DNA of 64,000 bases, from the NCBI GenBank assembly GCA_026984045.1, contig JALSSV010000082.1, forward strand, positions 62,001 to 126,000, in the 5' to 3' direction. This DNA is from Chromatiales bacterium (lineage in GTDB: Bacteria; Pseudomonadota; Gammaproteobacteria; UBA6429; Thiohalophilaceae). Below the pieces are notes generated by a model. It saw only the letters and a program-made list of their open reading frames with translations. It did not search any database and was not told the origin of the DNA. Position numbers and translations under genes: made by a program. Positions 26,415 through 48,235 of the stretch are shown piece by piece (position 1 is the stretch's first letter; each line of letters starts with the position of its first letter).

Positions 26415-26872
26415 GAGGTTCTCCTTTCTGTCGGGTGGTTGGGAAGCGTGGATTGATCGTCGTCCTCCGTCTCGAAGGATTCGATGAGATGACAGACCGA
26501 ATGCCCGTCGGGTACCCCATCGGGCAGACCGGCCCAGGTTTCCAGAGCCGCCTCCATGCGTGCCTGCAGGCGCATCAGCGCCGCAATTCGCTGGCGGTTG
26601 GTCTCGATGTGTTCCTGCAGGATCCGCCGCACGCGCGGACAGGGGGAGTCGCCCCGATCGGCATCCTCGAGAATCGCGCGTATCTCCTTGAGGCTGTAGC
26701 CCAGTTCTCGCGCCTGAAGGATAAAACGCAGGCGCGCTTCTTCGGCCTGGTCGAACAGGCGGTATTCGTTGTCGGGATGCCGCCGTTCGCGCAACAGCCC
26801 CAGGCGACTGTAATAACGCACCGTATGCGGCGTGGTGCCACATTCACGTGCCAGAGCGGTGACGGTCAACAT
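26402..26872 (-). CDS. MerR-family metal-responsive regulator of the copA operon
   Basis: The 156-aa regulator has an N-terminal winged helix (TVTALARECGTTPHTVRYYSRLGLL without the first residues), a dimerisation helix, and cysteines at C11, C78 and C127 (the last in a SVCHLIE motif shared by several metal-sensing MerR proteins). The long acidic tail overlaps the next gene. It is the first gene of a leftward operon with the copper ATPase and probably controls its own promoter at 26906-26937. The sensed metal is not certain. Confidence 0.88.
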   Translation of the reverse strand: MLTVTALARECGTTPHTVRYYSRLGLLRERRHPDNEYRLFDQAEEARLRFILQARELGYSLKEIRAILEDADRGDSPCPRVRRILQEHIETNRQRIAALMRLQARMEAALETWAGLPDGVPDGHSVCHLIESFETEDDDQSTLPNHPTERRTSWMS

Positions 26873-30205: not shown

Positions 30206-33200
30206 TCAGGCGGTCTTCGGCAGGCGCCGCTGCTTCCAGATCAGGAACACCGCCGGGATCACCACCAGGGTCAGCAGGGTGGCACTGACCATGCCGCCGA
30301 CCATGGGGGCGGCGATGCGGCGCATCACCTCGGAGCCGGTGCCGCTGCCGAGCATGATGGGCAGCAGGCCGGCGATGATCGCCGCCACGGTCATCATGAT
30401 GGGTCGCACCCGCAGCAGGGCCCCGTTGATCACCGCTTCACGCACGTCCGCCGCGGTGAGCCGACGGCCGGATCGCTCGGCCTCGAACGCCCGCTGCGCC
30501 AGCGCCTGGTTGAGATATACCAGCATCACCACGCCGATTTCCACCGACACCCCGGCCAGGGCGATGAATCCCACGTCCACGGCCACCGAGAGATTGTAGT
30601 CCAGCCAGTAGAGCAGCCAGATCCCCCCGGCCAGGGCCAGCGGCAGGGTGCCCATGATGATCAGGACCTCGCTGAGCCGCCGGAAGTTGAGATACAGCAA
30701 CAGTACGATGATGGCCAGGGTCACCGGCACCACGGTGGTCAGTTTCTCCTTGGCCCGCACCATGTATTCGTACTGGCCGGACCAGGCGATGGAATAGCCG
30801 GGCGGCAGTTTCACGTTCTCCCTGACCGCCTGCTGCGCCCGTTCCACGTAGGAGCCGAGATCGATCCCCGGCTCGATGTCCACGTAGCTCCAGCCATTGA
30901 GGCGGGCATTCTCGGTCTTGATCAGGCCGGGTCCGCTCTCGATGCGGATCGCCGCCACCTCCTCGAGGGGAATGTTCGCCCCCGCGGGAGTCACGATGGG
31001 CAGGCTGCGCAGCTTCGCGACCGAATCGCGCACATCACGGGGATAGCGCACATTGACCGGATACCGCTCCAGCCCCTCGACCGTGGTGGCCACGTTCATG
31101 CCGCCGACCGCCGTGCGCACCACTTCCTGCACATCGGCGATGTTGAGGCCGAAGCGCGCCGCGGCCAGCCGGTCGATGTCCACCACCACGTAGCGACCGC
31201 CGGCCACCCGCTCCGAATAGACCGAGGCCGTACCGGGCACCTCCTTGAGGACCTCCTCGATGCGCTTGCCGATCTTCTGGATCTCGTTGAGATCCGGGCC
31301 CGCGACCTTGACCCCCACGGGGGTCTTGATCCCGGTGGCCAGCATGTCGATGCGGTTCTTGATGGGCATCACCCAGGCGTTGGTCAGGCCCGGAAACTTG
31401 ACCAGGGCATCCAGCTCGCGCTTGAGCTTGTCGATGGTCATGCCCTTGCGCCATTCGCTGCGCGGCTTGAGCTGGATGGTGGTCTCGACCATGGTCAGCG
31501 GCGCCGGATCTGTGGCGCTCTCGGCCCGGCCGATCTTGCCGAACACCCGCTTGACCTCGGGCACCGTGCGGATCAGCCGATCCGTCTGCTGCAGGATCTG
31601 CTGGGCCTTGCCGATGGACACGGCCGGGAAGGCGCTGGGCATGTACAGCAGATCGCCTTCATCGAGATCCGGCATGAACTCGGAGCCGATCTTGTCGAAC
31701 GGCCCGAGGCCGAACAGGGGAAAGGCCATGGACAAGGCGATGAGTCCCGCGGCCACCAGCATGACGAGGGGCTTCCTGAGCACGGCATGGATCAAGGGCC
31801 GGTAACCGGCGATCAGGAGCCGGTTGATGGGGTTCTTGTCCTCGGGAGTGATGTGGCCGCGGATGAAATACCCCATCAGCACCGGCACCAGGGTGATGGA
31901 CAGGCCGGCGGCCGCCGCCATGGCGAAGGTCTTGGTGAAGGCCAGGGGGGCGAACAGCTTGCCCTCCTGGGCTTCGAGGGTGAATACCGGCAGGAAGCTC
32001 AGGGTGATGATCAGCAGCGAGAAGAACAGGGGTGGCCCGACCTCGGTGGCCGCCTCGCGCATCACGGCCCAGCGGTTCTCGTCGGTGATCTCGGTCTTCT
32101 CCATGTGCTTGTGCACGTTTTCGATCATCACGATGGCCGCATCCACCATGGCCCCGATGGCGATGGCGATTCCGCCCAGGGACATGATGTTGGCATTGAT
32201 GCCCATGCGCTCCATGATGATGAAGGCCGCCAGGATCCCCACCGGCAACGAGAAGATGATCACCAGGGCCGAGCGCAGGTGGAAAAGGAACACCGCGCAG
32301 ACCACGATCACCACGATGAATTCCTCGATCAGCTTGCCCTTGAGGGTTTCCACGGCGCGGCCGATGAGGCCGGAACGATCATAGGTCTCGACGATGTCCA
32401 CCCCGTCGGGCAAGCCCTTGCGCAATTCGGCCAGTTTGGCCTTGACGCCCTGGATGGTGGTCATGGCATTTTCGCCGAAGCGCATGACGATGACGCCACC
32501 GACCACTTCGCCTTCGCCATCCAGTTCGGCGATACCGCGGCGCATCTGGGGGCCCAGCCGGATCTGGGCCACGTCGTTCAGCAGAATCGGCACGCCCCGC
32601 TTGTCCACGCCCAGGGGAATGCGGCGCAGGTCGTCCAGCGAATCCACGTAACCGGTGGCGCGCACCATGTATTCGGCCTCGGCCAGCTCCAGCACCGAAC
32701 CGCCAGTCTCCTGGTTGCCCCGCTGGATGGCCTTCTTCACCTGAGCCAGGGTCAGACCATAGGCGCGCAGGCTGTCGGGATCGAGCACCACCTGGTATTG
32801 CTTGACCATGCCGCCGATGGTGGCCACTTCCGATACCCCGGGCACGGTCTGCAGCTCGTATTTGAGGAACCAGTCCTGCAGGGAACGCAACTGGGATAGA
32901 TCGTGCTGTCCGGTGCGATCGACCAATGCGTATTCATACACCCAGCCGACCCCCGTGGCATCCGGTCCCAGTTGTGGCCGGGCATCGGGTGGCAGCTTGC
33001 TGGCCACCTGGCTGAGGTATTCCAGCACCCGCGAGCGGGCCCAGTAGGGATCGGTCCCGTCCTCGAAGATCACGTAGACATAGGAATCGCCGAAGAAGGA
33101 GTACCCGCGCACCGTGGTGGCCTTGGGCACCGAGAGCATGGCGGTGGTCAGGGGATAGGTCACCTGGTCCTCCACTACCTGCGGGGCCTGGCCGGGGAAG

Positions 33201-33355
33201 CTGGTCTTGATGATGACCTGCACGTCGGACAGGTCGGGGATGGCGTCGAGGGGCGTGTGCTTGACCGCATACGCCCCCCAGCCGATGAGGATGACCGTCA
33301 GCAGCAGCACCATGAAGCGGTTGCGGACGGACCAGTCGATGATGCCTGAAATCAT
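30206..33355 (-). CDS. cusA: Copper/silver RND efflux pump CusA
   Basis: The 1049-aa inner-membrane pump expels Cu(I)/Ag(I) from the periplasm and cytoplasm. The TM4 signature [17 protein letters not shown] matches CusA. The three methionines that bind copper in E. coli CusA have counterparts in [17 protein letters not shown] and NRIDMLATG. Twelve membrane helices are apparent. The gene starts 12 bases after cusB ends. Confidence 0.95.
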
Positions 33356-33367
33356 GATGCGTCTCCG

Positions 33368-34999
33368 TCAGGGCTGCTTGTGAATGGCGGTGATCACGTA
33401 CCGCTCACCGTGCTTCTGCAGGGTGAAGCGGATCCGATCGCCGGCGTGCAGATCGGAAAGGTCCACGCCCTTGGCAACGGTGAAATCCATGGTCATGGCG
33501 GGCCAGCCGAGGGCCTCGATGGGAGCGTGCTCCAGGGTAAGCATGCCGTGCTCCGGCATCACGGCCTTGACGGTTCCGTGCCCCTGCACCGGCTGCTGTT
33601 TTTCCATGCGGGTGATCACATAGCCTTCGCCCTGCTTCTCGAGGGTGAAGGTCACCCGGTCACCCGGTTTCAGGGTGGACAGATCCACCCCTTTGGCCGC
33701 GATCAGATCATGGCTCATGGCCGACCAGTTCAGCGCCGGGATCGCCTCGTGCTCAAGCTTGACCATGCGGTGCTCGGGCATCAGCGAGATGAGGCGTCCC
33801 TGCGCCTCGACCGGCTTGTTTTCCATCGGTGTCATGCGCTGTACGGTGGCCTTGAGACTGGCCTCCGAGTCGATCAGGAACTGGCCGGAGGTCACCACCG
33901 TCTCGCCCGGCTTGAGGCCTTCCACGATTTCCACCCAGTCGCCGCTCTCGATGCCGCTACGCACCTTGCGGGCCTCGAAGCGCCCCTCGCCCAGGGCGAC
34001 GATCACCCGCTCTTCCCGCCCGGTGCGGATCAGGGCCTGGAGCGGGATGGCGATCACGTTGTCCTTGGGGCCACCGTAGATCTTCACGTTGGCGTACATG
34101 TTGGGCTTGAGTTTCTCGTCGGGGTTGGCGAAGCGCAGCCGCACCTTGAGGGTACGGGTCTTCGGATCGAGGCTCGGGTAGATGTAGCGCACCTTGCCTT
34201 CCCAGGTCCGCCCCGGCAGGTAGGAAAGACGGATGTCGGCCGGATTGCCCAGCCTCACCCAGTCCACCTGGCGCTCGAAGACTTCCGCCAGCACCCACAC
34301 GGAGGACAGATCGGCCAGGCTCATCACCCGGTTGGCCGGCTTGACATACATGCCTTCACGCACCGGCAACGTGGCCACCATGCCATTCTGGGGCGCATAG
34401 ATGGTGACCGTCTGGCGCACCCTGTGACTGCGCGCCAGTTCGCGGATCTGATCATCGGGAATCCCCAGGGCCTGCAAGCGCTCCCGCGAAGCGCGAATCA
34501 GCGGCTTGCTGCCCGCGCGCAGGGCCTGTACGTATTCTTCCTGGGCGTTGACCAGCTCCGGCGAATAGAGATCGAGCAACCGGTCGCCCTTGCGCACGCG
34601 CTCGCCTTCCGACTTGACATAGAGCTTTTCGATCCAGCCGGTCGCCCGCAGATGGATATGGGCCAGCCGCGATTCGTCGAAATCCACATACCCCACCGTG
34701 TCGATCATCCGCCACAGGCGGGTCCGTTGAGCCTTGGCGGTGCGTACCCCCAGGCTCTGCACGATCTCCGGCTTGATGGTGATTGCGTTGCCGCTGTCCT
34801 GTTCGTCGGCATAGACGGGGATCAGATCCATGCCCATGGGCGACTTGCCGGGCTTGTCGCGCCGGTAGTTGGGATCCATGGGGGCCACCCAGTAGAGAAT
34901 TTCCCGTTCGCCGTCCTCGGCCGCCGGGGCACGGGCTGGCCACAGGCTGGCCGCCAGCCAGCCGGCGCCGATCAGGATCATCAGGTGCTTGCCTTTCAT
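33368..34999 (-). CDS. cusB: CusB adaptor with two C-terminal CusF domains
   Basis: The 543-aa periplasmic adaptor has a signal peptide, an N-terminal heavy-metal-binding segment (YWVAPMDPNY...GKSPMGMDLIPVY, residues 36-63), the adaptor body, then two tandem CusF domains. Domain 1 (about 398-467) has H417, W425, M428 and H430. Domain 2 (about 472-543) has H491, W499, M502 and M504, the exact CusF ligand spacing. So the second domain is canonical and the first has a Met-to-His change. E. coli keeps CusF as a separate protein. Its start overlaps the cusC stop (ATGA). Confidence 0.93.
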   Translation of the reverse strand: MKGKHLMILIGAGWLAASLWPARAPAAEDGEREILYWVAPMDPNYRRDKPGKSPMGMDLIPVYADEQDSGNAITIKPEIVQSLGVRTAKAQRTRLWRMIDTVGYVDFDESRLAHIHLRATGWIEKLYVKSEGERVRKGDRLLDLYSPELVNAQEEYVQALRAGSKPLIRASRERLQALGIPDDQIRELARSHRVRQTVTIYAPQNGMVATLPVREGMYVKPANRVMSLADLSSVWVLAEVFERQVDWVRLGNPADIRLSYLPGRTWEGKVRYIYPSLDPKTRTLKVRLRFANPDEKLKPNMYANVKIYGGPKDNVIAIPLQALIRTGREERVIVALGEGRFEARKVRSGIESGDWVEIVEGLKPGETVVTSGQFLIDSEASLKATVQRMTPMENKPVEAQGRLISLMPEHRMVKLEHEAIPALNWSAMSHDLIAAKGVDLSTLKPGDRVTFTLEKQGEGYVITRMEKQQPVQGHGTVKAVMPEHGMLTLEHAPIEALGWPAMTMDFTVAKGVDLSDLHAGDRIRFTLQKHGERYVITAIHKQP

Positions 35000-36261
35000 T
35001 TTTCGTCCTCCGTATACAGGTACAGCAACCGGGCCTGGGCACGCGCCCGATCGGTCCAGATGCGCAATTCGGCGAGGCGCACGTCCAGTTCGGTGAGACG
35101 GGCGCGCATCAGGGTGGTGAATTCGGTCAGACCGCTCTGGTAGGCCTTGAGCGCGGCCTCGGCGTTGGCCTTCGCCTCTTGCACCAGTTTGCGTTCGTAG
35201 AGGGCCTTGCGCTCACCCAGACGTTTCCAGTTGGCGTATTCACGGGCGAGCATGGCTTCGAGTTTGCGGCGCACGTCGTCCTTGTCGAACTGGGCCGCGG
35301 CGGCCTTGTGCAGGCTGGCGTTCAGGCGCCGATCCTGGCGCTGTCCGGTGAAGAAGGGCAGGTCGAAGGTGACCATGGCCGCCATCATGTCGGTGCGATC
35401 GGTCCCGTTGGGGTTTTCGCCGAAGCGCTTGCGGTACTCGATGCCCAGGTTGAAGCCCGGTTTGTACTGCTCCCGCGCGATCTGCACGCCCTGGCGGTGA
35501 CTCTCCACCTGGGCGGACTTGAAGGCCAGCAGCGGATGCCGTTCGAGGCTGGCGAGGATCGCATCCCGGGATGGCAGGGGCGGCAACGCCGGCCGCTCGC
35601 TGGCCAGTGGCTGCCAGGCGGCATCCCCCACCCAGGTCGCCAGTCCGGCGCGCTGGGCCTCTTCCCGGTTGCGGATCCGCGTTTCCCGGTCGTCCAGCCG
35701 CGACAGTTCGAGCTGGGCCCGCAACACGTCCTGCTGGGTCACGCGGCCGGCGGCGAACTGGTAGCGGGTGACATCCACCAGTTGCTCGAACAGCTTGCGG
35801 CTGGCGCGCACGATCGCCCCGGCCTGTACCTGAAAGTAGACTTCCAGATACTTTTCCCGCACCGACTGCCGCACCTTGCGCCGTTCGGCCCGGGCGCGGG
35901 CGCTCTGGGCATTGGCCAGCCATTCGGTCCGCCGCTGGCGGTAGGCGAGGGTGTCGCCGCGCGGCAGGGCCTGCAGATAGCCGAAACGCAACTGGGTGGT
36001 GGGTTCCTGACTGATGTCGAAGGAATCGAGTGGCAGGTTGTAGAGGCCGATGCGCAGCTTCGGATCGGGCAGTTGGCCATCGGCCACCGCGTCTTCACGC
36101 AGCGATTCGGCCCGCGCCTCGGTGGCCTCGATGACCGGATCGGTCTCGAGAGCCAGGCGTTCGGCCTCGCTCAGATTCAGGGCGGCATGGGCCGCCGTGG
36201 CAAGGTTCCACAGCGTTGCGGCAATCAGCCACCGCAACGACCGGATCGGATTCGGATTCAT
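34996..36261 (-). CDS. cusC: CusC-like outer-membrane factor
   Basis: The 421-aa protein is the TolC-family exit channel of the Cus system. It has a signal peptide (LRWLIAATLWNLATAAHAA) and the long coiled-coil duplication (LNLSEAERLALETDP; DIRLAELRIWTDRARAQ). There is no lipobox cysteine, unlike E. coli CusC. GGAG precedes the ATG at 36261. Translation is coupled to cusB through an ATGA overlap. Confidence 0.9.
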   Translation of the reverse strand: MNPNPIRSLRWLIAATLWNLATAAHAALNLSEAERLALETDPVIEATEARAESLREDAVADGQLPDPKLRIGLYNLPLDSFDISQEPTTQLRFGYLQALPRGDTLAYRQRRTEWLANAQSARARAERRKVRQSVREKYLEVYFQVQAGAIVRASRKLFEQLVDVTRYQFAAGRVTQQDVLRAQLELSRLDDRETRIRNREEAQRAGLATWVGDAAWQPLASERPALPPLPSRDAILASLERHPLLAFKSAQVESHRQGVQIAREQYKPGFNLGIEYRKRFGENPNGTDRTDMMAAMVTFDLPFFTGQRQDRRLNASLHKAAAAQFDKDDVRRKLEAMLAREYANWKRLGERKALYERKLVQEAKANAEAALKAYQSGLTEFTTLMRARLTELDVRLAELRIWTDRARAQARLLYLYTEDEK

Positions 36262-36339
36262 GATGACACTCCATGGCGAAACGAAAGACCTGTGGCGACG
36301 ATACACGCACGGCGGCGCGTCGCAACAGAAACCGGTCAA

Positions 36340-36968: not shown

Positions 36969-37394
36969 TTAGTTATCAGACGCGTCCGCTTCGACCTCGT
37001 CTTCGATGCCTTCGATGATGGGACAGCCTTCGGCGCTGCCCCGGCACAGGTTGAGCAGCAGGGTCAGTTCATTGCGCAGCAGGGTCAGCGCCTCCAGGCG
37101 GTGTTCCACTTCGGCCAGCTTGCGGGCGGTCAGCTCGCGCACCTCGTCCCGGGCATGCCGGGGATCGGCGCGCATCTTCAGCAGCATGCCGATCTCCTCG
37201 AGGCGGAAGTTCATCTTCTGGGCGCGCTGGATGAAACGCAGTCGGGAGAGATCCGCCTCGTCGTAGATCCGCACGCCACCGGCATTGCGGGCCACGGGCG
37301 GCAACAGGCCGATCTTCTCGTAATAGCGCAGGGTATCGGCCGACAGGCCGGTCAGCCGGGTCACCTCGCCGATGCGGTAACGTTTGTCTGCCAT
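36969..37394 (-). CDS. MerR-family regulator, CueR/ZntR-like
   Basis: The 141-aa protein has the MerR winged helix (YRIGEVTRLTGLSADTLRYYE), a dimer helix and a C-terminal metal loop CRGSAEGCPIIE. Two cysteines seven apart resemble the CueR loop. The Ser77/Cys79 position that sorts monovalent from divalent sensors reads Ala here (RHARDEV). It shares one base with the DsrE gene stop (TGATG) and ends the thioredoxin-CcdA-DsrE operon, upstream of and parallel to cus. Confidence 0.9.
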   Translation of the reverse strand: MADKRYRIGEVTRLTGLSADTLRYYEKIGLLPPVARNAGGVRIYDEADLSRLRFIQRAQKMNFRLEEIGMLLKMRADPRHARDEVRELTARKLAEVEHRLEALTLLRNELTLLLNLCRGSAEGCPIIEGIEDEVEADASDN

Positions 37395-37801
37395 CAGGGC
37401 CGCCAGTAGCGATAGCCGGCCAGTTGCAAGCGGATCACTTCGGGGGCGCCGGCAGGCACGAATTCCACTTCGATGGGAAACGCCGATTCATCCAGATTCC
37501 AGCCACGCATGCTGATCCGGCAGGCCCGGAATTCCACTCCGCGGTTGGCCAGCTTGGTCAGCAACTGATTCGTCTGCGGATTGTCGGCCAGCAGGGCATG
37601 GATGCCTTCCTCGTAGGCCACCACCACGAAGTGCACCTTGTCCTCGCCCAGCTCGGTGAGCACCTTGTCGATCTGCAGCATCACGCGGCGATGACCGAAG
37701 TCGTCGGCCGGGCGGGTGAGCTGGACCACGAAGGGCACCGGCTCGGCGAAGGCCGGCGGGATCAGGGGCAGCAGCAACAGCAGCAGGCAGGCGCGTTTCA
37801 T
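37394..37801 (-). CDS. Exported DsrE-family protein
   Basis: The 135-aa product has a signal peptide (MKRACLLLLLLPLIPPAFA) and a DsrE/DsrF-like fold: FGHRRVMLQIDKVL, VHFVVVAYEEGIHALL and a conserved cysteine in EFRACRISMRGWNL. DsrE-like proteins carry sulfur or act in thiol transfer. Export to the periplasm is less usual for characterised members. GAGG precedes the ATG at 37801. It follows the CcdA-like gene by seven bases and overlaps the MerR gene. Confidence 0.8.
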   Translation of the reverse strand: MKRACLLLLLLPLIPPAFAEPVPFVVQLTRPADDFGHRRVMLQIDKVLTELGEDKVHFVVVAYEEGIHALLADNPQTNQLLTKLANRGVEFRACRISMRGWNLDESAFPIEVEFVPAGAPEVIRLQLAGYRYWRP

Positions 37802-37808
37802 GGCCACC

Positions 37809-39113
37809 TCAATATTCGATGACGAAGAAGTATTCGTTGAGCAGATACAACCCGGTGAGGATCAGGGTGATCCCCGCCACCGACTCCAAGGCCTTCTGGT
37901 GCCGCGACAACATGCGCAGGGATTCCAGCCAGCCCATGCTCCAGGCGCCCAGGAGGATGGGAATGCTGCGCCCCAGGGCGAAGGCCAGCAGCAGTCCGGC
38001 GCCGAACCCCACCGAGCCGATGGCCGCGCTGGCGGTCAGGGTCACCAGCAGCGCCGGGGTGCAGAAGGGGCACACGGCCACCGAGAAGGGGATGCCCAGC
38101 AAAAAGGCGCCCCACAGGCCGCTCACCCGGCGTCCGCGCACGCCGAACCAGGGCAGGCGCAGGCGCAGCCAGCCCGGCCAGATCAGGCCCAGCAGGATCA
38201 GCAGCGGGCCGAGCACCAGCCCCCACTGCCGGCCCATCACCGACTGCACCCACTCGCCACCCAGTGCCGCCGCCACGCCCAGGCCGACATGGGTCGCCAG
38301 CATGCCGGCGACGAAGGCGCTGCCCATGGCCAGCGCCCGCTTTTCTTCCCCGGCCTTGGTGACATAGGCCAGCATCACCGGAATCGAGGCGAAGGAGACC
38401 GGATTGAAACTGAACACGAAACCGGCCAGAAAGGCCAGTCCGATGCCGGCCCAGCTCGCCTGCTGCAGGGCCGCCTTGAGGCTGGGGGGATCGATGTCGA
38501 TGGCCGGCACGAGCAGGAAAAGGGCCGTCCCCAGCAGCAGCGCCGCGGTCAGCCATGGGGCGCCGCGCGCCGCCCGGGCCAGCAGTTCCTGGCCATCGGC
38601 ATGAATGCCACGCAAAGCGGCGAACACCATGGGCAGACTGAACAGGGAGGCGAACAGCACCCCGGCCAGGGCCGCGAAGGCCAGCGAATCCACCGTGATG
38701 GCCAGGCCCGTGACCACCACCACCAGCGGCAAGGTGCAGGCCGGCAGGGTCAGCCCCAGACGCACCCCCTCGGGCAGCCGCCCGCCACCGGGGATCAGGC
38801 GATGGAATTCCAGGTGCGGAATGGGCAGATAGACGAAGCGCGAGATCACGTAGATCACGGCCATGGCCGTGAGGATCAGGCTGGGCAGCCAGGGCCCCCA
38901 GGCGGGTGGCGTGGTGAGCGCGGTGATCAGCACCAGCAGGCCCGAAAGCAGCAGACTGCGGATGACCCACACCACCAGCAGGCCCTGGCAGCAGGTTCGG
39001 CGAGCCGCACGATGGGCACGCACCGCATACAGGGTATTGGTGGCGATGGTGCAGGGCTCGAAGAAGGCCAGCAGGCCCAGCAGCACCGCCATCGCCAGCA
39101 GCAGGGGAATCAT
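37809..39113 (-). CDS. Duplicated CcdA/DsbD-like membrane thiol transporter
   Basis: The 434-aa membrane protein consists of two CcdA-like halves. The first half has FFEPC (C21) and LPACTLP. The second has FNPVSFASIPVM, where the first motif has lost its cysteine, and VCPFCTP. CcdA/DsbD proteins move reducing electrons across the inner membrane. An upstream thioredoxin overlaps its start by four bases (ATGA), suggesting the pair feeds electrons outward. An Arg-Cys-Cys in the first loop (RRTCCQG) is an extra thiol site. Confidence 0.85.
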   Translation of the reverse strand: MIPLLLAMAVLLGLLAFFEPCTIATNTLYAVRAHRAARRTCCQGLLVVWVIRSLLLSGLLVLITALTTPPAWGPWLPSLILTAMAVIYVISRFVYLPIPHLEFHRLIPGGGRLPEGVRLGLTLPACTLPLVVVVTGLAITVDSLAFAALAGVLFASLFSLPMVFAALRGIHADGQELLARAARGAPWLTAALLLGTALFLLVPAIDIDPPSLKAALQQASWAGIGLAFLAGFVFSFNPVSFASIPVMLAYVTKAGEEKRALAMGSAFVAGMLATHVGLGVAAALGGEWVQSVMGRQWGLVLGPLLILLGLIWPGWLRLRLPWFGVRGRRVSGLWGAFLLGIPFSVAVCPFCTPALLVTLTASAAIGSVGFGAGLLLAFALGRSIPILLGAWSMGWLESLRMLSRHQKALESVAGITLILTGLYLLNEYFFVIEY

Positions 39114-39379
39114 GCGCCGGCCTCCAGCCGCGCGCGCAGCGCCTGCTCCAGCTTGCGCCGGCTCGGCAGGCCGGTGAAGACCAGTTCGCCGTCGATGGCG
39201 ATGGCCGGGGTGGACATGACCCCCAGGGCCACGGCGTGATCCATTTCGTCGAGGATGTTGACCTCGCGCCACTGCACGCGTTCGCCGCCGAGTTCCTCGG
39301 CCAGGCGGCGCAAGACCGCCTTGGCATGGCCGCACTTGCTGCAGCCGGGAGAGGCGAAAACTTCCACCTGAATGGGCAT
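39110..39379 (-). CDS. Thioredoxin-fold protein (CSKC)
   Basis: The 89-aa protein is a compact cytosolic thioredoxin or glutaredoxin-like protein with FASPGCSKCGH near residue 13 and the cis-Pro motif MSTPAIAIDGELV. There is no signal peptide. It heads an operon with the double CcdA, DsrE and a MerR gene, behind a MerR-type promoter at 39420-39450. It probably supplies electrons to the CcdA protein. Confidence 0.88.
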   Translation of the reverse strand: MPIQVEVFASPGCSKCGHAKAVLRRLAEELGGERVQWREVNILDEMDHAVALGVMSTPAIAIDGELVFTGLPSRRKLEQALRARLEAGA

Positions 39380-39419
39380 GTCGTTCTCCTGTGGGCCTGC
39401 TCGAGAGGCGATCGTTTCC

Positions 39420-39450
39420 AGCTTATCACCTGGAGTTGGCTCCAGGTCAA
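39420..39450 (-). promoter_or_regulatory. MerR-type promoter with perfect dyad
   Basis: On the minus strand TTGACC (39445-39450) and TAAGCT (39420-39425) are 19 bases apart. Between and over them lies ACCTGGAG-TTGG-CTCCAGGT (39428-39447), a perfect eight-base inverted repeat. The spacing and dyad are classic for a MerR-activated promoter. A near-identical site lies at 41122-41152. Confidence 0.85.
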
Positions 39451-39489
39451 GCGTCCGTTGCCGGCCGGGGGGAACCGCTTGGCCCGGAC

Positions 39490-39897
39490 TCAGTGACCAA
39501 GCCACTTCAGCAGCGGCAGGGCCAGATAGGCGGCGAAGAAGCCGACGCTCCAGATCCCGATCGACACCCAGTAGATCCGCCGATTCCAGCGCATGGCCCG
39601 GTCGCAGGCCTGCCCCAGTTCCGCATCGGCGGGACAGGCCCGGCCGGGACGGTAGAGAGCCCAGCCAGCCAGGATCAGCATCAGCGCGGAAAAGACGAAG
39701 ATCCACACCTTGTGCTGACTGAGCGTGATCAGAAAGGGGAAGCTGCTGGTCATCGCGGCCACCGTGGCGCCCAGCCCGAGGGTCACCAGGGTGATGGGCA
39801 GGGCGCAGCACAGCAGCGTGCCGGTGGTGGTGAACAGGGCCAGCCAGGTGAGGCCCTGCTGTCGCCGCGGAGACGGCGGGTTTTCCAGGGTAGTCAT
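39490..39897 (-). CDS. MerT-like membrane transport protein
   Basis: The 135-aa inner-membrane protein has about four hydrophobic segments. A vicinal cysteine pair in the first (GTLLCCALPITLV) and a second pair in the loop (RACPADAELGQAC) match the MerT mercury-uptake pattern. It overlaps the MerP-like gene by four bases (ATGA). It is diverged from the MerT at 45874. The ion may be mercury or another thiophilic metal. Confidence 0.85.
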   Translation of the reverse strand: MTTLENPPSPRRQQGLTWLALFTTTGTLLCCALPITLVTLGLGATVAAMTSSFPFLITLSQHKVWIFVFSALMLILAGWALYRPGRACPADAELGQACDRAMRWNRRIYWVSIGIWSVGFFAAYLALPLLKWLGH

Positions 39898-40190
39898 GGC
39901 TTGGCCTGCTGCGTCATGCTGCGAAAGGTGAAGCCGGCGTCCTTGAACAGCTTCTGCATCTGGGCGTCGGTCAGTTCGGTGCCTTCCTTCACGTCCACCG
40001 TGACCAGCCCCTTGTCCAGATCCACCTTCACCTTCTGCACGCCGTCGATGGCCTTGAGCTTCTTCTCCACGCCATAGGCGCAATAGGGGCAGGCCAGGCC
40101 ATCGACCCGCATGACGTATTCGGTGCCGGCCGCCAGGGCCACCTGGCTGAGCCACAGCAGCAACAGGCCCATTGCGATTCGCTTGTTCAT
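39894..40190 (-). CDS. MerP-like periplasmic metal-binding protein
   Basis: The 98-aa product has a signal peptide (IAMGLLLLWLSQVALAA) and one HMA domain with CPYC in VDGLACPYCAYGVEKKL. MerP hands Hg(II) to MerT. The Tyr between the cysteines differs from typical MerP (CxAC). It lies 25 bases after the outer-membrane protein gene and overlaps the MerT-like gene. Confidence 0.88.
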   Translation of the reverse strand: MNKRIAMGLLLLWLSQVALAAGTEYVMRVDGLACPYCAYGVEKKLKAIDGVQKVKVDLDKGLVTVDVKEGTELTDAQMQKLFKDAGFTFRSMTQQAKP

Positions 40191-40215
40191 GATTCACTCC
40201 TCGTGCCTTGGGGCA

Positions 40216-41040
40216 TCACAGATGCCATTCGAGAATCAGCCGGGCCCGGTAGTCCGCGTCCGGCTGGTTGCCATTGAGATCGGAAAGGACGGGGATCTGC
40301 ACCCCGGCCTTGATGGCGAAATTGCGCAGGGTCCAGAAAATGCCGGGGGAGACGAACCACTGCATGCCGCCGGTATCGGCCAGATCCTGTCCGTTCAGGC
40401 GCGCCTTCTGCTGGATCTCGCCATTGAGTTCCAGCAGCCAGACCGTATCCGGCTCGAGATAGCCCCGCGGCGTGGGTCGGATGCCACCGACCAGATCCAC
40501 ACGCAGCATGTCGCCCCGATCCACGCCGGCCGGATTGGTGCCGTTGTAGCGGTAGCGCACGCTGGCCCAGCGGTACCACTTGCGGGACTCATAGCCCCAG
40601 GTCAGCCCGGCGATGCCATCGGTCACGCCCTTGCCCAGGGGCGGCGTGGTGGTGGAATCGGCGCTCTCGGTGACGACCTTCAGAAGCACCGCGGCCGATT
40701 CCTGGAGACCCAGGGAGTCGCGCCGCCAGAACCGGTACTTGGTGAACAGGGCGACGTCTCCGGCCCCGCTGCTGCGGTTGCCGTCATCCGCCTTGCGCAC
40801 CCAGGGCAGATCCACGCCCACGGCCCAGTCGCCGGTCAGGCCATAGGTCAGTTCCAGGGCCAGTTCCTGCTCCTTCTCGGGGCCGGCCTTCTCGGCCGCG
40901 GACTCGATGGCCACTTCCACACCGCCCTGGTAGAGCACATGGGGCCCGATGCCGAAAACGGGATCGTGGGCCAGGGCCGGCTGGGCCAGGAGGCCGCTCG
41001 CGAGCGCGACGATCCAGCGTAATCTTCGTGAATTGATCAT
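40216..41040 (-). CDS. Outer-membrane beta-barrel protein
   Basis: The 274-aa product has a signal peptide (RWIVALASGLLAQPALA) and alternating amphipathic strands (VEVAIESAAE, LALELTYGLTGDWAVGVDL), with a C-terminal LEWHL. It looks like the transporter or phenol-MetA-like barrel family. It is the first gene of an operon with MerP-like and MerT-like proteins and is driven from the MerR-type promoter at 41122-41152. An outer-membrane protein in a mer-type operon is uncommon. Confidence 0.75.
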   Translation of the reverse strand: MINSRRLRWIVALASGLLAQPALAHDPVFGIGPHVLYQGGVEVAIESAAEKAGPEKEQELALELTYGLTGDWAVGVDLPWVRKADDGNRSSGAGDVALFTKYRFWRRDSLGLQESAAVLLKVVTESADSTTTPPLGKGVTDGIAGLTWGYESRKWYRWASVRYRYNGTNPAGVDRGDMLRVDLVGGIRPTPRGYLEPDTVWLLELNGEIQQKARLNGQDLADTGGMQWFVSPGIFWTLRNFAIKAGVQIPVLSDLNGNQPDADYRARLILEWHL

Positions 41041-41121
41041 GCCTGTCTGCCTCGTCTTGTCTGCGGGGAATGGGATTCGGTCAATTCCGGAGCCCCGGCA
41101 GAAATGACCTGCCATGGAGAC

Positions 41122-41152
41122 AGCCTAAATGCTGGAGTCGACTCCAGGTCAA
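41122..41152 (-). promoter_or_regulatory. MerR-type promoter and operator (divergent region)
   Basis: On the minus strand TTGACC (41147-41152) and TAGGCT (41122-41127) are 19 bases apart, with the dyad CTGGAG-TCGA-CTCCAG (41132-41147) between. It matches the half-sites at 39428-39447. It lies between the outer-membrane protein gene and the divergent MerR gene, which is the likely ligand. Confidence 0.85.
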
Positions 41153-41219
41153 GCCCCGGTTGCCGGTTTTTTTCGATTCTGTCAGCCTGTGGATCGAGGC
41201 AGACCATCCCGGAGGCGTC

Positions 41220-41618
41220 ATGCACGGCAGCCTGACCATCGGGGCCCTGGCCCGGGCCGCGGGCGTGAACGTGGAAACCATCCGTTATTACCAGCGGGTG
41301 GGCCTGATCACGGAACCGCCCCGTCCCGCCACGGGCTACCGCACCTATCCACCCGACACCATCGATCGCATCCGCTTCATCAAGCGGGCCCAGAAACTGG
41401 GCTTCCGCCTGCGGGAAATCCGCGAACTGCTCGAACTGGGGGAAGCCAGTTGCCATGACGTGCAGCAACGGGCACAACAGAAACGGGAACAAATCGATCG
41501 CCAGATTGCCGATCTGCAAGCCTTGCGGGAGACCCTGGACAGGCTTATCCAGACCTGTAACGAACGGGGTGAGTCCCGCTCCTGTCCCATCGTGGAGAGC
41601 TTGCAGCGAAAAGACTGA
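41220..41618 (+). CDS. MerR-family regulator, Hg/Pb type
   Basis: The 132-aa regulator has the MerR helix-turn-helix (LTIGALARAAGVNVETIRYY) and cysteines C78, C113 and C122. Their spacing (35 and 9) equals that of Tn21 MerR C82/C117/C126 and also of PbrR. The ending SCPIVESLQ is typical. It is divergent from the outer-membrane/MerP/MerT operon and faces the CTGGAG dyad. It probably controls that promoter and its twin at 39420. Confidence 0.92.
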   Translation: MHGSLTIGALARAAGVNVETIRYYQRVGLITEPPRPATGYRTYPPDTIDRIRFIKRAQKLGFRLREIRELLELGEASCHDVQQRAQQKREQIDRQIADLQALRETLDRLIQTCNERGESRSCPIVESLQRKD

Positions 41619-41696: not shown

Positions 41697-42056
41697 ATGT
41701 CCATCGAAGTCAACGGCAAGGTCATCGAAACCGACGAAGAAGGCTATCTGCTCAATCCCGAGGATTGGGACGAAGACGTCGCCAGGGCCATTGCCGAGAA
41801 GGAAGGCATCGAACTGACCGAAGTCCACTGGGGACTCATCCGTTATTTCCGCGACTATTACGAGGAACACGTGGGCAAACACCCGAGCATGGCGATCCTG
41901 CTGCGCACCCTCGGCAAGGTGCACGGCGACAGCTACGAGGACGAAAAGGCCTACGAGAAATTCCTCTACTCCCTGTTCCCGAAGAACCCGGTTGCCGAGA
42001 TCTGCAAGCTGGCGGGGATTCCGAAGGCAGCCGTGCTGGCCGAAGAAGAAAACTGA
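41697..42056 (+). CDS. DsrC/TusE-family protein lacking the terminal cysteine
   Basis: The 119-aa protein matches DsrC/TusE (GYLLNPEDWDEDVARAIA, HWGLIRYFRDYYEE, MAILLRTLG, LYSLFPKNP). In DsrC two cysteines, CysB and the penultimate CysA, sit eleven residues apart; TusE keeps CysA. Here only the CysB-equivalent C103 is present, position 114 is Leu and the tail ends AEEEN. It cannot work as a standard sulfur carrier through CysA. A regulatory role, as proposed for cysteine-poor relatives, is possible. AAGGAGAA precedes the ATG at 41697. Confidence 0.9.
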   Translation: MSIEVNGKVIETDEEGYLLNPEDWDEDVARAIAEKEGIELTEVHWGLIRYFRDYYEEHVGKHPSMAILLRTLGKVHGDSYEDEKAYEKFLYSLFPKNPVAEICKLAGIPKAAVLAEEEN

Positions 42057-42109: not shown

Positions 42110-42906
42110 CGGCCGTGCAATTCCGACCGCGCCAGCGGATCCTGGCGGTAATAGCGCCGCAACTGGTCGTACACCTCGGGACAGGCCCGCTTCAGCGCCC
42201 GGGGCGTTTCGAAGAAGGCCTCTGTCGCCACCGCAAAGAACTCTGCCGGATTCTCTGCCGCATAGGGATCGAGCACGGTCTTGTGATGGTGCCGCAGGCG
42301 CGTCTGCAGGCGTTCGAAAGCCGCGCTGAAGGCCGCCGTCCAGGCACGGCGATCCATGCCCGCATGCAGAGGCGGCATGCCGTTGGCCACCCCGTTGTTC
42401 ATGTCCAGCTTGTGGGCGAACTCGTGGAGGATCACGTTGTGGCCGGTGCCGCTGCCCTGGACGTCCGGGCGCGCATCGGCCCAGCCGAGGATCAGCGGCC
42501 CCTCACCCCAGGCCTCGCCAGTCAGCGCCCGGGGTTCCACGTGCACCACGCCGCTCTCGTCCACCACCTCATGGGCCACCATGAAACTGCCGGGATAGAC
42601 GATGATCTCGTGGACACCGTCATAGTCGGAAAGATCCAGGTTCAGAATCAGCAGACAGGCCTGGGCAGCGATCACCCCCCGCATGACCTCATTCACCTGC
42701 AGACCGTCCGCACCCACGATGGTCTTTGTCCGCAGGAACAGGCTGGCCAGTTCGTGCAGGCGCGTCCGCTCCCGCACGTTGAGTCCATAGCGGGTCAGCG
42801 CCTGGCGTTCGACCCGCCTCCACCGGGCCGCGGGGATGCGAAAGCGCCGCAGGCGGCGTGCCCTGCGCCGGCGTTGCCAGCGGTGCCACAGCCCCGGCAT
42901 CGTCAT
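42106..42906 (-). CDS. mtfA: MtfA-type zinc peptidase
   Basis: The 266-aa protein belongs to the M90 peptidase family (Mlc titration factor A). The zinc site HEFAH appears in NVILHEFAHKLDM, with a downstream ENPAEFFAVATEAFF segment providing the third ligand. In E. coli MtfA binds Mlc. The start at 42906 overlaps the CDF stop by four bases (ATGA). The N-terminus is Arg-rich (HRWQRRRRARRLRR). Confidence 0.88.
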   Translation of the reverse strand: MTMPGLWHRWQRRRRARRLRRFRIPAARWRRVERQALTRYGLNVRERTRLHELASLFLRTKTIVGADGLQVNEVMRGVIAAQACLLILNLDLSDYDGVHEIIVYPGSFMVAHEVVDESGVVHVEPRALTGEAWGEGPLILGWADARPDVQGSGTGHNVILHEFAHKLDMNNGVANGMPPLHAGMDRRAWTAAFSAAFERLQTRLRHHHKTVLDPYAAENPAEFFAVATEAFFETPRALKRACPEVYDQLRRYYRQDPLARSELHGR

Positions 42907-43805
42907 ACCGGATCCTGATGAATGATCACCTCGGCCCCTGGCAGCAGTTGGCGGATGGCCGCATCCACCTCGTCGGCGATGGCATGGGCTTCGCGCAGGG
43001 GCAGATCCCCGTCCAGCTCCAGGTGCAACTGCACGAAGGGCACCGGCCCGGCCTGCCGGGTGCGCAGCGCATGCACGCCACGCACCGCGGCAGGCCGGCG
43101 GGCGGCTTCGAGAATGCGCTTCTGCACGGCTTCCGGCAATTCCCGATCCATGAGCTGCTCCAGGGCGGCGCGGGTGATGCGTCCGGCGCTGACGAAGATG
43201 TAGCCGGCCACCAGCAGGGCGAACAGCGGATCGGCGATCTGCACGCCCCGACCGGCGAGCACGAGCGCAGCGATTACGCCCAGGTTGGCCAGCAGATCGC
43301 TGGCATAGTGCAGGGCATCGGCGCGGATGGCGCTGGAGCCGGTAAGCCGGATGACCCGCCGCTGCAGCCACAGCAGGAGCAGCGTGGCGAACATGGCGAA
43401 CAGCATCACGCCGATGCCCACCGCCGTGGCCTCGAGCCTCTGCGGTTGCCGCAGCCGTTCCAGCGCATGCAGCACCAGAAACACCGCCGAGCCGGCGATG
43501 AAGGCGGCCTGCGCCAGGCCCGCCAGCGGCTCGGCCTTGCCGTGGCCGAAACGGTGCTCGGCATCGGCCGGCTGCAAGGACCAGCGCACCGCCAGCAGGT
43601 TCACCAGCGAGGCCAGTGCATCCATCAGGGAATCGATCAGCGAGGCGAGAATGCTCAGGGCGCCGGTCAGCAGCCAGGCGACGAGCTTGACGAGAATCAG
43701 CAGCACGGCGGTGGCCACCGAGGCCCGGGTGGCCCGCTGCAGCCAGCGGGCCCGTTCGGCCGGGGCCAGCGGCGCCGCGTTCGCCGTGACGTGCGAGTGC
43801 TCCAT
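42903..43805 (-). CDS. Cation diffusion facilitator, FieF-like
   Basis: The 300-aa exporter matches the FieF (YiiP) subgroup: DSLMDALAS in helix 2, the RFGHGKAEPLAGLAQ loop, HYASDLLAN in helix 5 and a full C-terminal cytoplasmic domain with His ligands (QLHLELDGDLPLREAHAIAD). Zn(II) or Fe(II) exchange for protons is expected. An in-frame GTG at 43808 is also possible. No strong ribosome binding site is visible. Confidence 0.92.
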   Translation of the reverse strand: MEHSHVTANAAPLAPAERARWLQRATRASVATAVLLILVKLVAWLLTGALSILASLIDSLMDALASLVNLLAVRWSLQPADAEHRFGHGKAEPLAGLAQAAFIAGSAVFLVLHALERLRQPQRLEATAVGIGVMLFAMFATLLLLWLQRRVIRLTGSSAIRADALHYASDLLANLGVIAALVLAGRGVQIADPLFALLVAGYIFVSAGRITRAALEQLMDRELPEAVQKRILEAARRPAAVRGVHALRTRQAGPVPFVQLHLELDGDLPLREAHAIADEVDAAIRQLLPGAEVIIHQDPV

Positions 43806-43817
43806 CACGGCAATGTA

Positions 43818-44930
43818 TCACAGCCCCGGACAGCACTCCGCCTGAGGCGGGATCCCCGGACGGGCCTCGTACCAGCCCCGGGTTCGATTCACCAGGCGCA
43901 CCACCCACAGCATCACCGGCACCTCGATGAGCACGCCCACCACGGTGGCCAGCGCGGCGCCCGATTCGAAACCGTAGAGGGAAATTGCCGTGGCCACCGC
44001 CAGCTCGAAGAAGTTGCTGGCGCCGATGAGCGCCGAAGGGCCGGCCACGCAATGCGGCGATCGCACCCAGCGGTTGAGACCATAGGCCAGGCCCGCATTG
44101 AACAGCACCTGGATCAGGATCGGGATGGCCAGCAGCAGGATCACCAGCGGCTGGCGCAGAATGGCCTGTCCCTGGAAACCGAACAGCAACACCAGGGTCA
44201 TCAGCAGGGCGGCAAGGGAGATCGGATGCAATCTCTTCAGGACCCGGTTCAGGCGGGCGACGCCATGGGTCTGCCGCAGCAGATGGCGCCGGAAGAGCGT
44301 GGCCAGCAGCAACGGCACCACGATGTACAACAGCACCGAAAGCAGCAGCGTGTCCCAAGGCACCGTGATGTCGGACAGGCCCAGCAGCAGGCCCACGATG
44401 GGAGCGAAGGCGAACACCATGATGACATCGTTGAGCGCCACTTGGCTGAGGGTGAAATGGGGCTCGCCGCGAGTCAGATGACTCCAGACGAAGACCATGG
44501 CCGTGCAGGGCGCGGCGGCCAGCAGAATCAGGCCGGCCACGTAGGAATCGATCTGATCCGCCGGCAACCAGGGGCGAAACAGGCCTTCGATGAACAGCCA
44601 GGCGAGCAGGGCCATGGAAAAGGGCTTCACGCCCCAGTTGACGAACAGGGTCACGCCCACCCCGCGCCAGTGCTGGCGCACGCCGCCGAGCGCCCGCATA
44701 TCGATCTTCAGCAGCATGGGGATGATCATCAGCCACACCAGCAACGCCACCGGCAGGTTGATGCGCGCCACCTCGAGGCGGCCCACCGCCTGGAAGAAAC
44801 CGGGAAAGATCCGTCCCAGACCGATGCCCGCCACGATGCACAGGAACACCCACAGGCTCAGCCAGCGCTCGAAGAACCCCATGTCGCCGCCGGCGGCCTT
44901 CCTGGCCGTGGTTTCACATTGCACGCTCAT
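43818..44930 (-). CDS. arsB: Arsenite efflux transporter, ACR3 family
   Basis: The 370-aa permease has about ten membrane helices and the ACR3 signature cysteine in AAAPCTAMVFVW, plus GASNFFELAVATAI with the conserved glutamate. It exports As(III) (and possibly Sb(III)). It ends in CCPGL. It overlaps arsC by four bases. The name Acr3 is more precise than ArsB, which is an unrelated family. Confidence 0.94.
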   Translation of the reverse strand: MSVQCETTARKAAGGDMGFFERWLSLWVFLCIVAGIGLGRIFPGFFQAVGRLEVARINLPVALLVWLMIIPMLLKIDMRALGGVRQHWRGVGVTLFVNWGVKPFSMALLAWLFIEGLFRPWLPADQIDSYVAGLILLAAAPCTAMVFVWSHLTRGEPHFTLSQVALNDVIMVFAFAPIVGLLLGLSDITVPWDTLLLSVLLYIVVPLLLATLFRRHLLRQTHGVARLNRVLKRLHPISLAALLMTLVLLFGFQGQAILRQPLVILLLAIPILIQVLFNAGLAYGLNRWVRSPHCVAGPSALIGASNFFELAVATAISLYGFESGAALATVVGVLIEVPVMLWVVRLVNRTRGWYEARPGIPPQAECCPGL

Positions 44931-45352
44931 CCCTTGTTCTCCGTGTTCTGTGACGACAGCAGTTCCTCCACGCGCTGCCGGATCGCGTCGCGGCTGGCCC
45001 GGAACACCTTCATCACCGCCTCTTCGCTGCCCGTGGCGCGAGCCGGATCCTCCAGCGGCCAGTGTTCCTTGCGGGTGCCCGGCGGCAGGGCCGGACAATG
45101 CTCGTCGGCATGGCCGCAGACCGTCACCACCAGATCGGCCCATTCCAGCATCTCATCGGTCAGCCGGGTCGACGCCTGATCCGAGATGTCCACCCCGGCC
45201 TCGGCCATCACCGCGATGGCCCGGGGATTCTTGCCATGGGCCTCGATCCCGGCCGAGCGGACCTGCAAATCCGCCCCGCCCAGCGTCCGTGCCCAGCCCT
45301 CGGCCATCTGCGAGCGGCAGGAATTGCCGGTGCAAAGAAACAGCAGATTCAT
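44927..45352 (-). CDS. arsC: Arsenate reductase, thioredoxin-coupled
   Basis: The 141-aa enzyme is of the low-molecular-weight phosphatase type. The P-loop reads CTGNSCRS near residues 7-14, and the second and third catalytic cysteines lie in VCGHADEHC. It reduces arsenate to arsenite using thioredoxin. It is translationally coupled to the arsenite exporter downstream and follows arsR by 37 bases. Confidence 0.94.
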   Translation of the reverse strand: MNLLFLCTGNSCRSQMAEGWARTLGGADLQVRSAGIEAHGKNPRAIAVMAEAGVDISDQASTRLTDEMLEWADLVVTVCGHADEHCPALPPGTRKEHWPLEDPARATGSEEAVMKVFRASRDAIRQRVEELLSSQNTENKG

Positions 45353-45389
45353 CGTTTCATCCTCATTGGTTGCTCTGCCTGAATACGCT

Positions 45390-45749
45390 TCACCCACACA
45401 CTTTCCGCTTTTCTCCGGTCACTTTCCTCTGGCCTGCCAGCCGCTGGCGATCCGTCGCATAGGGCTCACAGCCCCGGGCACCTTCGGCGAGGCTGGCGAG
45501 CACGGCCCGCGCCCAGGCTGGCAGATCCTCGTGCAGACGGTAATGGACCCACTGTCCGGCCCGCCGATCCCGAACCAGCCCGGCCTCGCGCAGGGCCGCC
45601 AGATGACGGGATACCTTGGGCTGGCTCTCGTCCAGGGCGTGGGTGAGTTCACAGACGCACAACTCGCCTGCGGCCTGAAGCAGCAGCAGGCAACGCAGGC
45701 GGGTGGGATCGGCCAGCCGTTTCAGCAAGGACACCGGGTCGGAAATCAT
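45390..45749 (-). CDS. arsR: ArsR-family arsenic repressor
   Basis: The 119-aa winged-helix repressor has ADPTRLRCLLLL and the metal loop ELCVCELTHAL, whose Cys-x-Cys binds As(III). The recognition helix is SQPKVSRHLAAL. The tail is longer than in the shortest ArsR proteins and carries extra cysteines (GCEPYA, KVCG). The -10 box is only six bases upstream of the ATG, so the transcript may lack a leader. Confidence 0.94.
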   Translation of the reverse strand: MISDPVSLLKRLADPTRLRCLLLLQAAGELCVCELTHALDESQPKVSRHLAALREAGLVRDRRAGQWVHYRLHEDLPAWARAVLASLAEGARGCEPYATDRQRLAGQRKVTGEKRKVCG

Positions 45750-45810: not shown

Positions 45811-45842
45811 TTGACTCCGTACCGAGGTACGGGGTCCACAAT
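45811..45842 (+). promoter_or_regulatory. Canonical mer promoter/operator
   Basis: TTGACT (45811-45816) and CACAAT (45837-45842) are 20 bases apart. The MerR dyad CCGTAC-CGAG-GTACGG (45818-45833) closely matches the Tn21 merO sequence. The -10 overlaps an ATG at 45841, which rules out that ATG as the merT start. Confidence 0.85.
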
Positions 45843-45873
45843 GGACTCATCGCGCAAAAGAGGAGATCCCGTG

Positions 45874-46227
45874 ATGGCCCTGTTTTCCACTCCCCGCAGT
45901 TCCCTGGTTGGCGGTTTTCTGGCCGCCATCGGCGCCTCGCTGTGCTGTGTCGGCCCCCTGGTACTGGTGAGCCTGGGCATCGGCGGCGCCTGGATCGGCA
46001 CCCTGACCGCGCTGGAGCCATACCGGCCCCTGTTCATCGCCGTCACGCTGCTGTTTTTGTTCCTGGCCTTTCGCAAGCTCTATCTGGTCCCGCGCGTCTG
46101 TGATCCGGATCAGCCCTGCGCCAACCCGGCCACCCTGCGCAACCAGCGGATCCTCTTCTGGGTGGTGAGCGTGGCGCTCATCGCCTTGCTGACGTTTCCG
46201 TATTACGGGGTGTATTTCCTGGAATGA
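45874..46227 (+). CDS. merT: Mercuric transport protein MerT
   Basis: The 117-aa protein (typical MerT length) has three membrane helices, the vicinal cysteines C24-C25 in IGASLCCVGPL and a second pair in RVCDPDQPC. It imports Hg(II) for reduction. AGGAG eight bases upstream supports the ATG at 45874. An in-frame ATG at 45841 lies within the promoter. Confidence 0.94.
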   Translation: MALFSTPRSSLVGGFLAAIGASLCCVGPLVLVSLGIGGAWIGTLTALEPYRPLFIAVTLLFLFLAFRKLYLVPRVCDPDQPCANPATLRNQRILFWVVSVALIALLTFPYYGVYFLE

Positions 46228-46283
46228 AGCCGGGCACGGACACCCACCAATTCCGAATGAATCAATCCCAGGAGGCAATTCAC

Positions 46284-48235
<1,952 letters not shown>

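Follow-up and report, generated by a model that had tools for sequence, protein, structure and literature searches.

Two operons sharing a CTGGAG-type operator combine a thioredoxin and a tandem CcdA protein with MerT/MerP-like carriers in a Chromatiales bacterium

We analysed a 64,000-nucleotide stretch of the genome of a Chromatiales bacterium (NCBI GenBank assembly GCA_026984045.1, contig JALSSV010000082.1, positions 62,001 to 126,000 of the forward strand), hereafter the window. It contains two minus-strand operons that face operators of one type, the first encoding a small thioredoxin-like protein (Trx), a CcdA-type protein, a DsrE-family protein and a MerR-family regulator, and the second an outer-membrane protein (OMP), a MerP-like protein and a MerT-like protein. 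We use "Z site" for the CTGGAG-type MerR-family operator of these operons and "mer-type site" for operators of the TCCGTAC-N4-GTACGGA type. The features concerned are as follows.

41220..41618, plus strand: MerR1, a Hg-type MerR (MerR equivalog and cysteine alignment)
41152-41122, minus strand: Z operator/promoter of the OMP-MerP-like-MerT-like operon, TTGACC-TGGAGTCGACTCCAGCATT-TAGGCT (sequence reading and relatives)
40216..41040, minus strand: OMP of the Phenol_MetA_deg type (family scan and homologue alignment)
39894..40190, minus strand: periplasmic HMA protein, MerP-like, with a CPYC motif (both cysteines invariant)
39490..39897, minus strand: MerT-like inner-membrane protein (cysteine pattern in homologues)
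39450-39420, minus strand: Z operator/promoter of the trx operon, TTGACC-TGGAGCCAACTCCAGGTGA-TAAGCT (sequence reading and genome pattern search)
39110..39379, minus strand: trx, a small thioredoxin-like protein of 89 aa with a CSKC motif, MJ0307/MTH895-like (family scans)
37809..39113, minus strand: CcdA2, a tandem CcdA/DsbD_TM protein of 434 aa (alignment, profile and fold search)
37394..37807, minus strand: DsrE-family protein with a signal-like N terminus (family scan)
36969..37394, minus strand: MerR2, a CueR-like MerR regulator inside the trx operon (family scans, alignments and co-occurrence)

The -35 and -10 elements of both Z sites are separated by 19 bases, a spacing typical of MerR-family promoters, and both sites contain the dyad CTGGAG-N4-CTCCAG; the left site (39420-39450) has longer perfect arms, ACCTGGAG-N4-CTCCAGGT. 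The initial annotation of this DNA had described these elements, the gene order of the two operons and an operator type common to both, and all of this was read on the minus strand as it had claimed. The pattern TTGACCTGGAGN4CTCCAG had two matches in the 2.98 Mb host genome, exactly these two sites, and the reversed control had none; when up to three mismatches were allowed, 0.16 matches were expected in the window and four were found, one of which overlaps a true site through the symmetry of the pattern. Relatives carry a site matching 41122-41152 upstream of the same genes. At two other loci (L047, ~6740-6900; L036, ~12900-13100) the OMP operon leader contains a second, imperfect CTGGAG dyad, which follows the main site at a distance of about 60 bases.

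Conservation of the gene set and its operator, which the initial annotation had named as one check on its proposal, proved to be wide. Twenty further family genomes encode Trx homologues with 58-86% identity; the surrounding genes are the same and, in most, so is the operator. Together, 14 of 40 family genomes hold 16 Z sites, with no control matches. Scanning 369 genomes of the class with the operator pattern only, and with no gene query, we found 27 further Z sites in 25 other genomes (reversed pattern: 0), and genes for OMP, MerP-like protein, MerT-like protein, Trx or MerR2 lie directly downstream of 25 of these 27. A CcdA2 profile run over ~85,000 species returned 129 relatives, and 80 loci were retained, many of them on truncated contigs. 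These loci are mostly from Gammaproteobacteria (Thiogranum, Thiohalobacter, Sedimenticola, Chromatiales, Acidiferrobacterales), with some Thiobacillus, other Hydrogenophilales and Burkholderiales making up the rest, and the gene set recurs in many sulfur-oxidising bacteria. Of the 80 loci, 75 show trx, and a Z operator lies upstream of that gene in 60 of them; MerR2 comes after CcdA2 in 57 of the 80, a count that includes the truncated contigs, and one locus (L150) has the same two-operon layout as the window. Metal islands mix genes freely and many of the parts belong to common families, so a chance juxtaposition of ordinary metal genes with no functional unit might be imagined, but dozens of species repeat the operator, the gene order and the co-occurrence, and we regard that explanation as hardly credible.

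A further operon, about 5 kb from the Z operons, bears on the regulation of the locus and has a different operator.

45811..45842, plus strand: canonical mer operator/promoter TTGACTCCGTACCGAGGTACGGGGTCCACAAT (match to the consensus in PMC1526738)
45874..46227, plus strand: merT (family scan)
46224..46583, plus strand: merP, likely start 46284 (passes TIGR02052)
46580..48235, plus strand: merA with an N-terminal HMA domain (TIGR02053, 568.8 bits against a cut-off of 454)

The proteobacterial mer operator consensus is TCCGTAC-N4-GTACGGA (PMC1526738). With this operator and with MerT, MerP and MerA, the stretch from 45811 to 48235 is a mer operon; the merT product scores 128.4 bits against 150 for NF010314, slightly below, yet is full-length. 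The locus therefore holds two distinct operator types. The initial annotation had placed the Z operons in a system without MerA, which overlooked merT-merP-merA (45874-48235) and the canonical mer operator that precedes these genes, and the idea of a mer design that is non-standard because MerA is missing is thereby ruled out.

The two MerR-family proteins differ in type. MerR1, the protein at 41220, has the cysteine triad that the initial annotation had assigned to it (C78, C113 and C122, aligning to C82, C117 and C126 of a solved MerR), and at 155.2 bits against a cut-off of 150.85 it passes the NCBIfam MerR equivalog as a Hg-type MerR. MerR2, which that annotation passed over as a candidate regulator, carries two cysteines, C117-X6-C124, that are invariant in 76 loci, and no third cysteine. 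The position of CueR Ser77 is occupied by Arg or Lys in 68 of the 76 loci, by Arg in the MerR2 of the window, and by Cys in 8; these few Cys-bearing proteins come from L039, L046, L048 and L049 and duplicate records, and none of the scored records has flanking mer genes, numbers too small to support a link between this residue and the presence of mer genes. MerR2 aligns over its full length with CueR, its closest solved structure, and CTGGAG is the consensus half-site of ZntR (PMC1526738), but MerR2 differs from both regulators in its scores, all below the equivalog cut-offs (CueR, 110.5 against 147.4; ZntR models, 113.9 against 143 and 99 against 168), in the C-X6-C pair, in Arg/Lys at the Ser77 position, and in a spacer of 19 rather than 20 bases.

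Across the 40 family genomes we compared the operators and regulators by Fisher tests, which count kin genomes as independent. MerR2 occurs in 12 of the 14 genomes that have a Z site and in 9 of the 26 that lack one (p=0.0028), and no association was found between the Z site and MerR1 (p=0.33). The mer-type site was associated with MerR1 (17 of 17 genomes with the site and 7 of 23 without it; p=6.7e-6) and showed none with MerR2 (p=0.54). MerR2 also accompanies trx in 20 of 21 trx genomes (p=4.6e-9), and it is present in 23 of the 25 class genomes that carry a Z site. Four family genomes (G016, G019, G025, G026) have a Z site and MerR2 without MerR1; one (G005) has a Z site and MerR1 without MerR2, but its contig stops just beyond the operator in repeat-like sequence. 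Several relatives contain both operators in a single intergenic region, the mer-type site beside merR1 and the Z-type site facing trx or OMP. We also note, as an arrangement in its own right, that L036, L038, L040 and L043 have two different MerR-family operators back to back between merR1 and trx or OMP, a compact two-sensor switch.

The initial annotation had MerR1 driving both Z sites. Such control, in which MerR1 would bind both CTGGAG sites and run the two operons as a mercury response, would suit the position of the MerR1 start, 68 bases from the 41132-41152 site and divergent from it as in the classical mer layout, an adjacency that recurs in L033, L040, L045 and G005, and no mer-type site was found upstream of MerR1 within the window. 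We nonetheless consider it quite improbable, since Z sites occur in the four genomes without MerR1, MerR1 tracks the mer-type site and not the Z site, in relatives MerR1 has a mer-type site of its own next to the Z site, and the DNA-reading helix of MerR1 matches that of the Tn501-type MerR, whose published site is the mer-type sequence. Because co-occurrence and site pairing point to MerR2 for the Z sites and to MerR1 for the mer operator, we propose MerR2 as the likelier of the two to control both Z sites and MerR1 as the most likely regulator of the mer operator at 45811, an assignment that rests on association across kin genomes rather than on binding. With MerR1 assigned to the mer operator, it does not follow from the cysteine triad of this protein that Hg or Pb induces the two Z operons. 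Directly after MerR1 lies a gene for a DsrC-like protein (41697-42056, plus strand) without the C-terminal cysteine motif; in a genome of the same genus the DsrC-like protein is 95% identical and MerR1 only 73% identical.

We next consider the proteins of the OMP operon. MerP and MerT carry metal on cysteine pairs. The MerT-like protein has a CC pair in its first transmembrane helix and two further cysteines, C89 and C99, all four of which are invariant in 32 homologues, and the MerP-like protein, with its CPYC motif, scores 36.4 bits against TIGR02052, below the cut-off of 92.55. The predicted signal peptide of OMP ends in AxA directly before His-Asp-Pro, the predicted mature N terminus, which is invariant in 18 homologues, as are H25, H34 and H273; this N-terminal His-Asp-Pro may bind metal. 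Within the family, a MerT-like protein occurs in 15 of the 21 trx genomes, while five of the other six have a canonical MerT and one has a MerC-MerA pair divergent from trx, such that all 21 genomes with trx and CcdA2 have a MerT-like, MerT or MerC carrier. MerT-like protein or MerT was found in 20 of 21 genomes with trx against 5 of 19 without it (p=7.5e-6). MerA is missing from 10 of the 21 trx genomes, two of which have an estimated completeness of 97-98%. As the carriers are present in all and MerA is absent from 10 of 21, the module accompanies MerT/MerC-type carriers and not mercury reduction as such. Among the 80 loci, canonical mer genes lie 7 kb or less away in 19.

The trx operon encodes the redox partners. 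Trx begins at the fold itself, with CxxC at residue 13 and no signal peptide, and the cysteines are invariant in its homologues. The halves of CcdA2 align with each other over 195 columns (E=8e-4), revealing a tandem repeat that the initial annotation had overlooked. In the N-terminal half, C21 and C126 represent the canonical CcdA pair; the C-terminal half has lost the first canonical cysteine and gained a CPFC motif (C348, C351), and all four cysteines are invariant in 38 CcdA2 sequences. The DsbD_TM domain in the C-terminal half scores 53.3 bits against a cut-off of 27.1, placing the protein in the CcdA/DsbD_TM family, and CcdA (5vkv) was its sole PDB profile match and also its top fold match; past CcdA, the fold search gave just unspecific transporter matches. 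A DsrE gene is found in only a minority of relatives. A second MerR-thioredoxin pair was seen ~12 kb from these operons (26184-26872, minus strand), consisting of a third MerR-family regulator (26402-26872) and, after it, a small thioredoxin-like protein with a CSHC motif.

A small thioredoxin-like protein adjoining a CcdA-fold membrane protein is also found in the organoarsenical resistance system ArsEFG, in which ArsE and ArsF are thioredoxin-like and ArsG is a CcdA-like permease; ArsG is cited as an organic-arsenical efflux transporter in PMC9144182. The main rival to a redox role is therefore an ArsEFG-like efflux pair, in which Trx would load a thiol-bound metal(loid) or organometal onto a CcdA-like permease for export. 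The C-terminal half of CcdA2 matches the ArsG model with 62.4 bits and Trx matches MTH895/ArsE with 44.1 bits, ars genes are nearby in the window, and an efflux role would account for the module where MerA is absent. However, both scores are far below their cut-offs (200 for ArsG and 62 for ArsE), an ArsF-like second redox protein is absent from the operon, and the canonical CcdA pair kept in the N-terminal half together with the fixed MerT/MerC partnership suit electron transfer. The module further differs from ArsEFG in its duplicated CcdA, its MerR control and its MerT/MerP partners, and we regard efflux of this kind as unlikely, if the best of the alternatives.

From these data, we give about an even chance to the proposal that the two operons form one MerR2-controlled regulon, a metal-induced transmembrane dithiol relay of Trx and tandem CcdA that serves MerT/MerP-type thiol carriers. 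MerR2 would occupy the two Z promoters with their 19-base spacers (39420-39450 and 41122-41152), activating them when a thiophilic metal, perhaps Hg(II), Cu(I), Ag(I) or similar, binds its cysteine pair. Metal would be collected by OMP and the periplasmic HMA protein and passed onward by the MerT-like protein via its cysteine pairs. Cytosolic Trx would meanwhile supply dithiol reducing power to CcdA2, which would carry it across the inner membrane, so that the CxxC and CC pairs of the carriers stay reduced and can both bind metal and release it, although the periplasm is oxidising. The carriers served may be the regulon's own MerT/MerP-like proteins or the MerT, MerP or MerC of a neighbouring mer operon. 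Reduction before metallation has a precedent in TlpA, which reduces the copper chaperone ScoI and COX II (PMC6696091).

Several observations weigh against this relay proposal. The CTGGAG half-site is that of ZntR, yet the sequence of MerR2 is nearer to CueR, and the Fisher tests treat related genomes as independent. The AlphaFold model of CcdA2 is moderate (pLDDT 78, pTM 0.57). The MerT-like protein scores 20.6 bits against Pfam MerT, below the cut-off of 32.9, and had no NCBIfam matches, and MerP/MerT-like genes share the flank in 36 of 80 loci, the acceptor thus not always being adjacent. Finally, genomes that lack MerA would have little use for a pure importer, so the metal path may run outward.

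The identity of the metal bears on another explanation, a copper/silver stress module in which MerR2 would sense a monovalent metal, Trx-CcdA would repair periplasmic thiols in an Scs-like manner, and Cus efflux would lie downstream. The relationship of MerR2 to CueR, which shares its two-cysteine arrangement without a third cysteine, is consistent with this, as are the cusBA genes after the trx operon in the window, the RND genes near 12 of 80 loci and the invariant predicted N-terminal His of OMP. On the other hand, the carrier genes are of the Hg type, canonical mer genes lie close by in the 19 of 80 loci counted above, and CTGGAG differs from the published CueR site ACCTTCCC-N5-TGGAAGGT (PMC1526738). 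The operon also departs from an Scs system, with no ScsC-like periplasmic partner, a Trx that lacks a signal peptide and no other thioredoxins. We judge a copper/silver module to be improbable, though a serious contender.

The relay proposal can be set beside several known systems. The Z operons resemble the mer operon (Boyd and Barkay 2012, PMC3466566) in MerR-family control, the 19-base spacer and MerT/MerP-like carriers with conserved cysteine pairs, but differ from it in the half-site, the two-cysteine MerR, the additional OMP, thioredoxin and tandem CcdA, and the lack of MerA inside them. They fall outside the mer type, having another operator, MerT-like and MerP-like proteins below the family cut-offs and no MerA in the transcription unit, and the mer genes tabulated in that review include neither trx nor ccdA. 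Relative to CcdA/DsbD and TlpA-ScoI priming (PMC6696091), the shared elements are the CcdA fold, the canonical cysteine pair in the N-terminal half, a thioredoxin donor and a cysteine-pair metal chaperone as a plausible acceptor; CcdA2 differs in being tandem, in its divergent C-terminal half and in metal-stress control. Plasmid clusters of Nitrobacter, Paraburkholderia, Cupriavidus and Variovorax (NC_007960, NZ_CP099644, NZ_CP026545, NZ_LR594664) share MerR, thioredoxin and CcdA, with HMA, MerT, P-type ATPase or mer genes adjacent, but have a single CcdA homologous to only the C-terminal half of CcdA2 and a MerR of the three-cysteine type, and a search for the Z operator in these relatives found none.

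In the open-access literature, we found no description of a Trx-CcdA-MerR metal module, and none is mentioned in the passages that were searched in Boyd and Barkay 2012 and in Christakis et al. 2021. The initial annotation's suggestion of an undescribed system therefore stands for the gene set within that literature, but its argument from a missing MerA does not, as MerA is present in the neighbouring operon, even though half of the module genomes do not have it. What we did not find there is the combination with this operator and regulator; the families of the parts and the principle of control are known. Taken as a whole, we tentatively suggest, as a possibility short of a probable conclusion, an undescribed and widely kept metal-stress regulon in which a Trx-tandem CcdA relay serves MerT/MerP/MerC carriers under a new MerR subclass, defined by C-X6-C with Arg/Lys in place of the third ligand, with its own operator.

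Other genes of the window also relate to metals. Downstream of MerR2 are genes for CusA, CusB and TolC (30206-36339, minus strand), and the CusB has two C-terminal CusF-like stretches, making it an adaptor-chaperone fusion. Divergent from merTPA (42903-45749, minus strand) are genes for a FieF-like cation efflux protein, an Acr3-like arsenite transporter (called from sequence, without a family scan), a thioredoxin-type ArsC and ArsR, which make up a combined arsenic and mercury island with merTPA. A small protein with a Lys/Ala/Ser-rich, histone-H1-like N-terminal tail is encoded at 55938-56270 (minus strand).

How the cysteine pairs of MerP and MerT stay reduced in the periplasm is a question that is rarely addressed. 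If our proposal is true, a thioredoxin-CcdA relay would answer it for one large bacterial group, and MerT-type transport would be separated from mercury reduction, since half of the genomes are without MerA. It would also yield a specific regulator-operator pair and a new subclass of MerR sensor.

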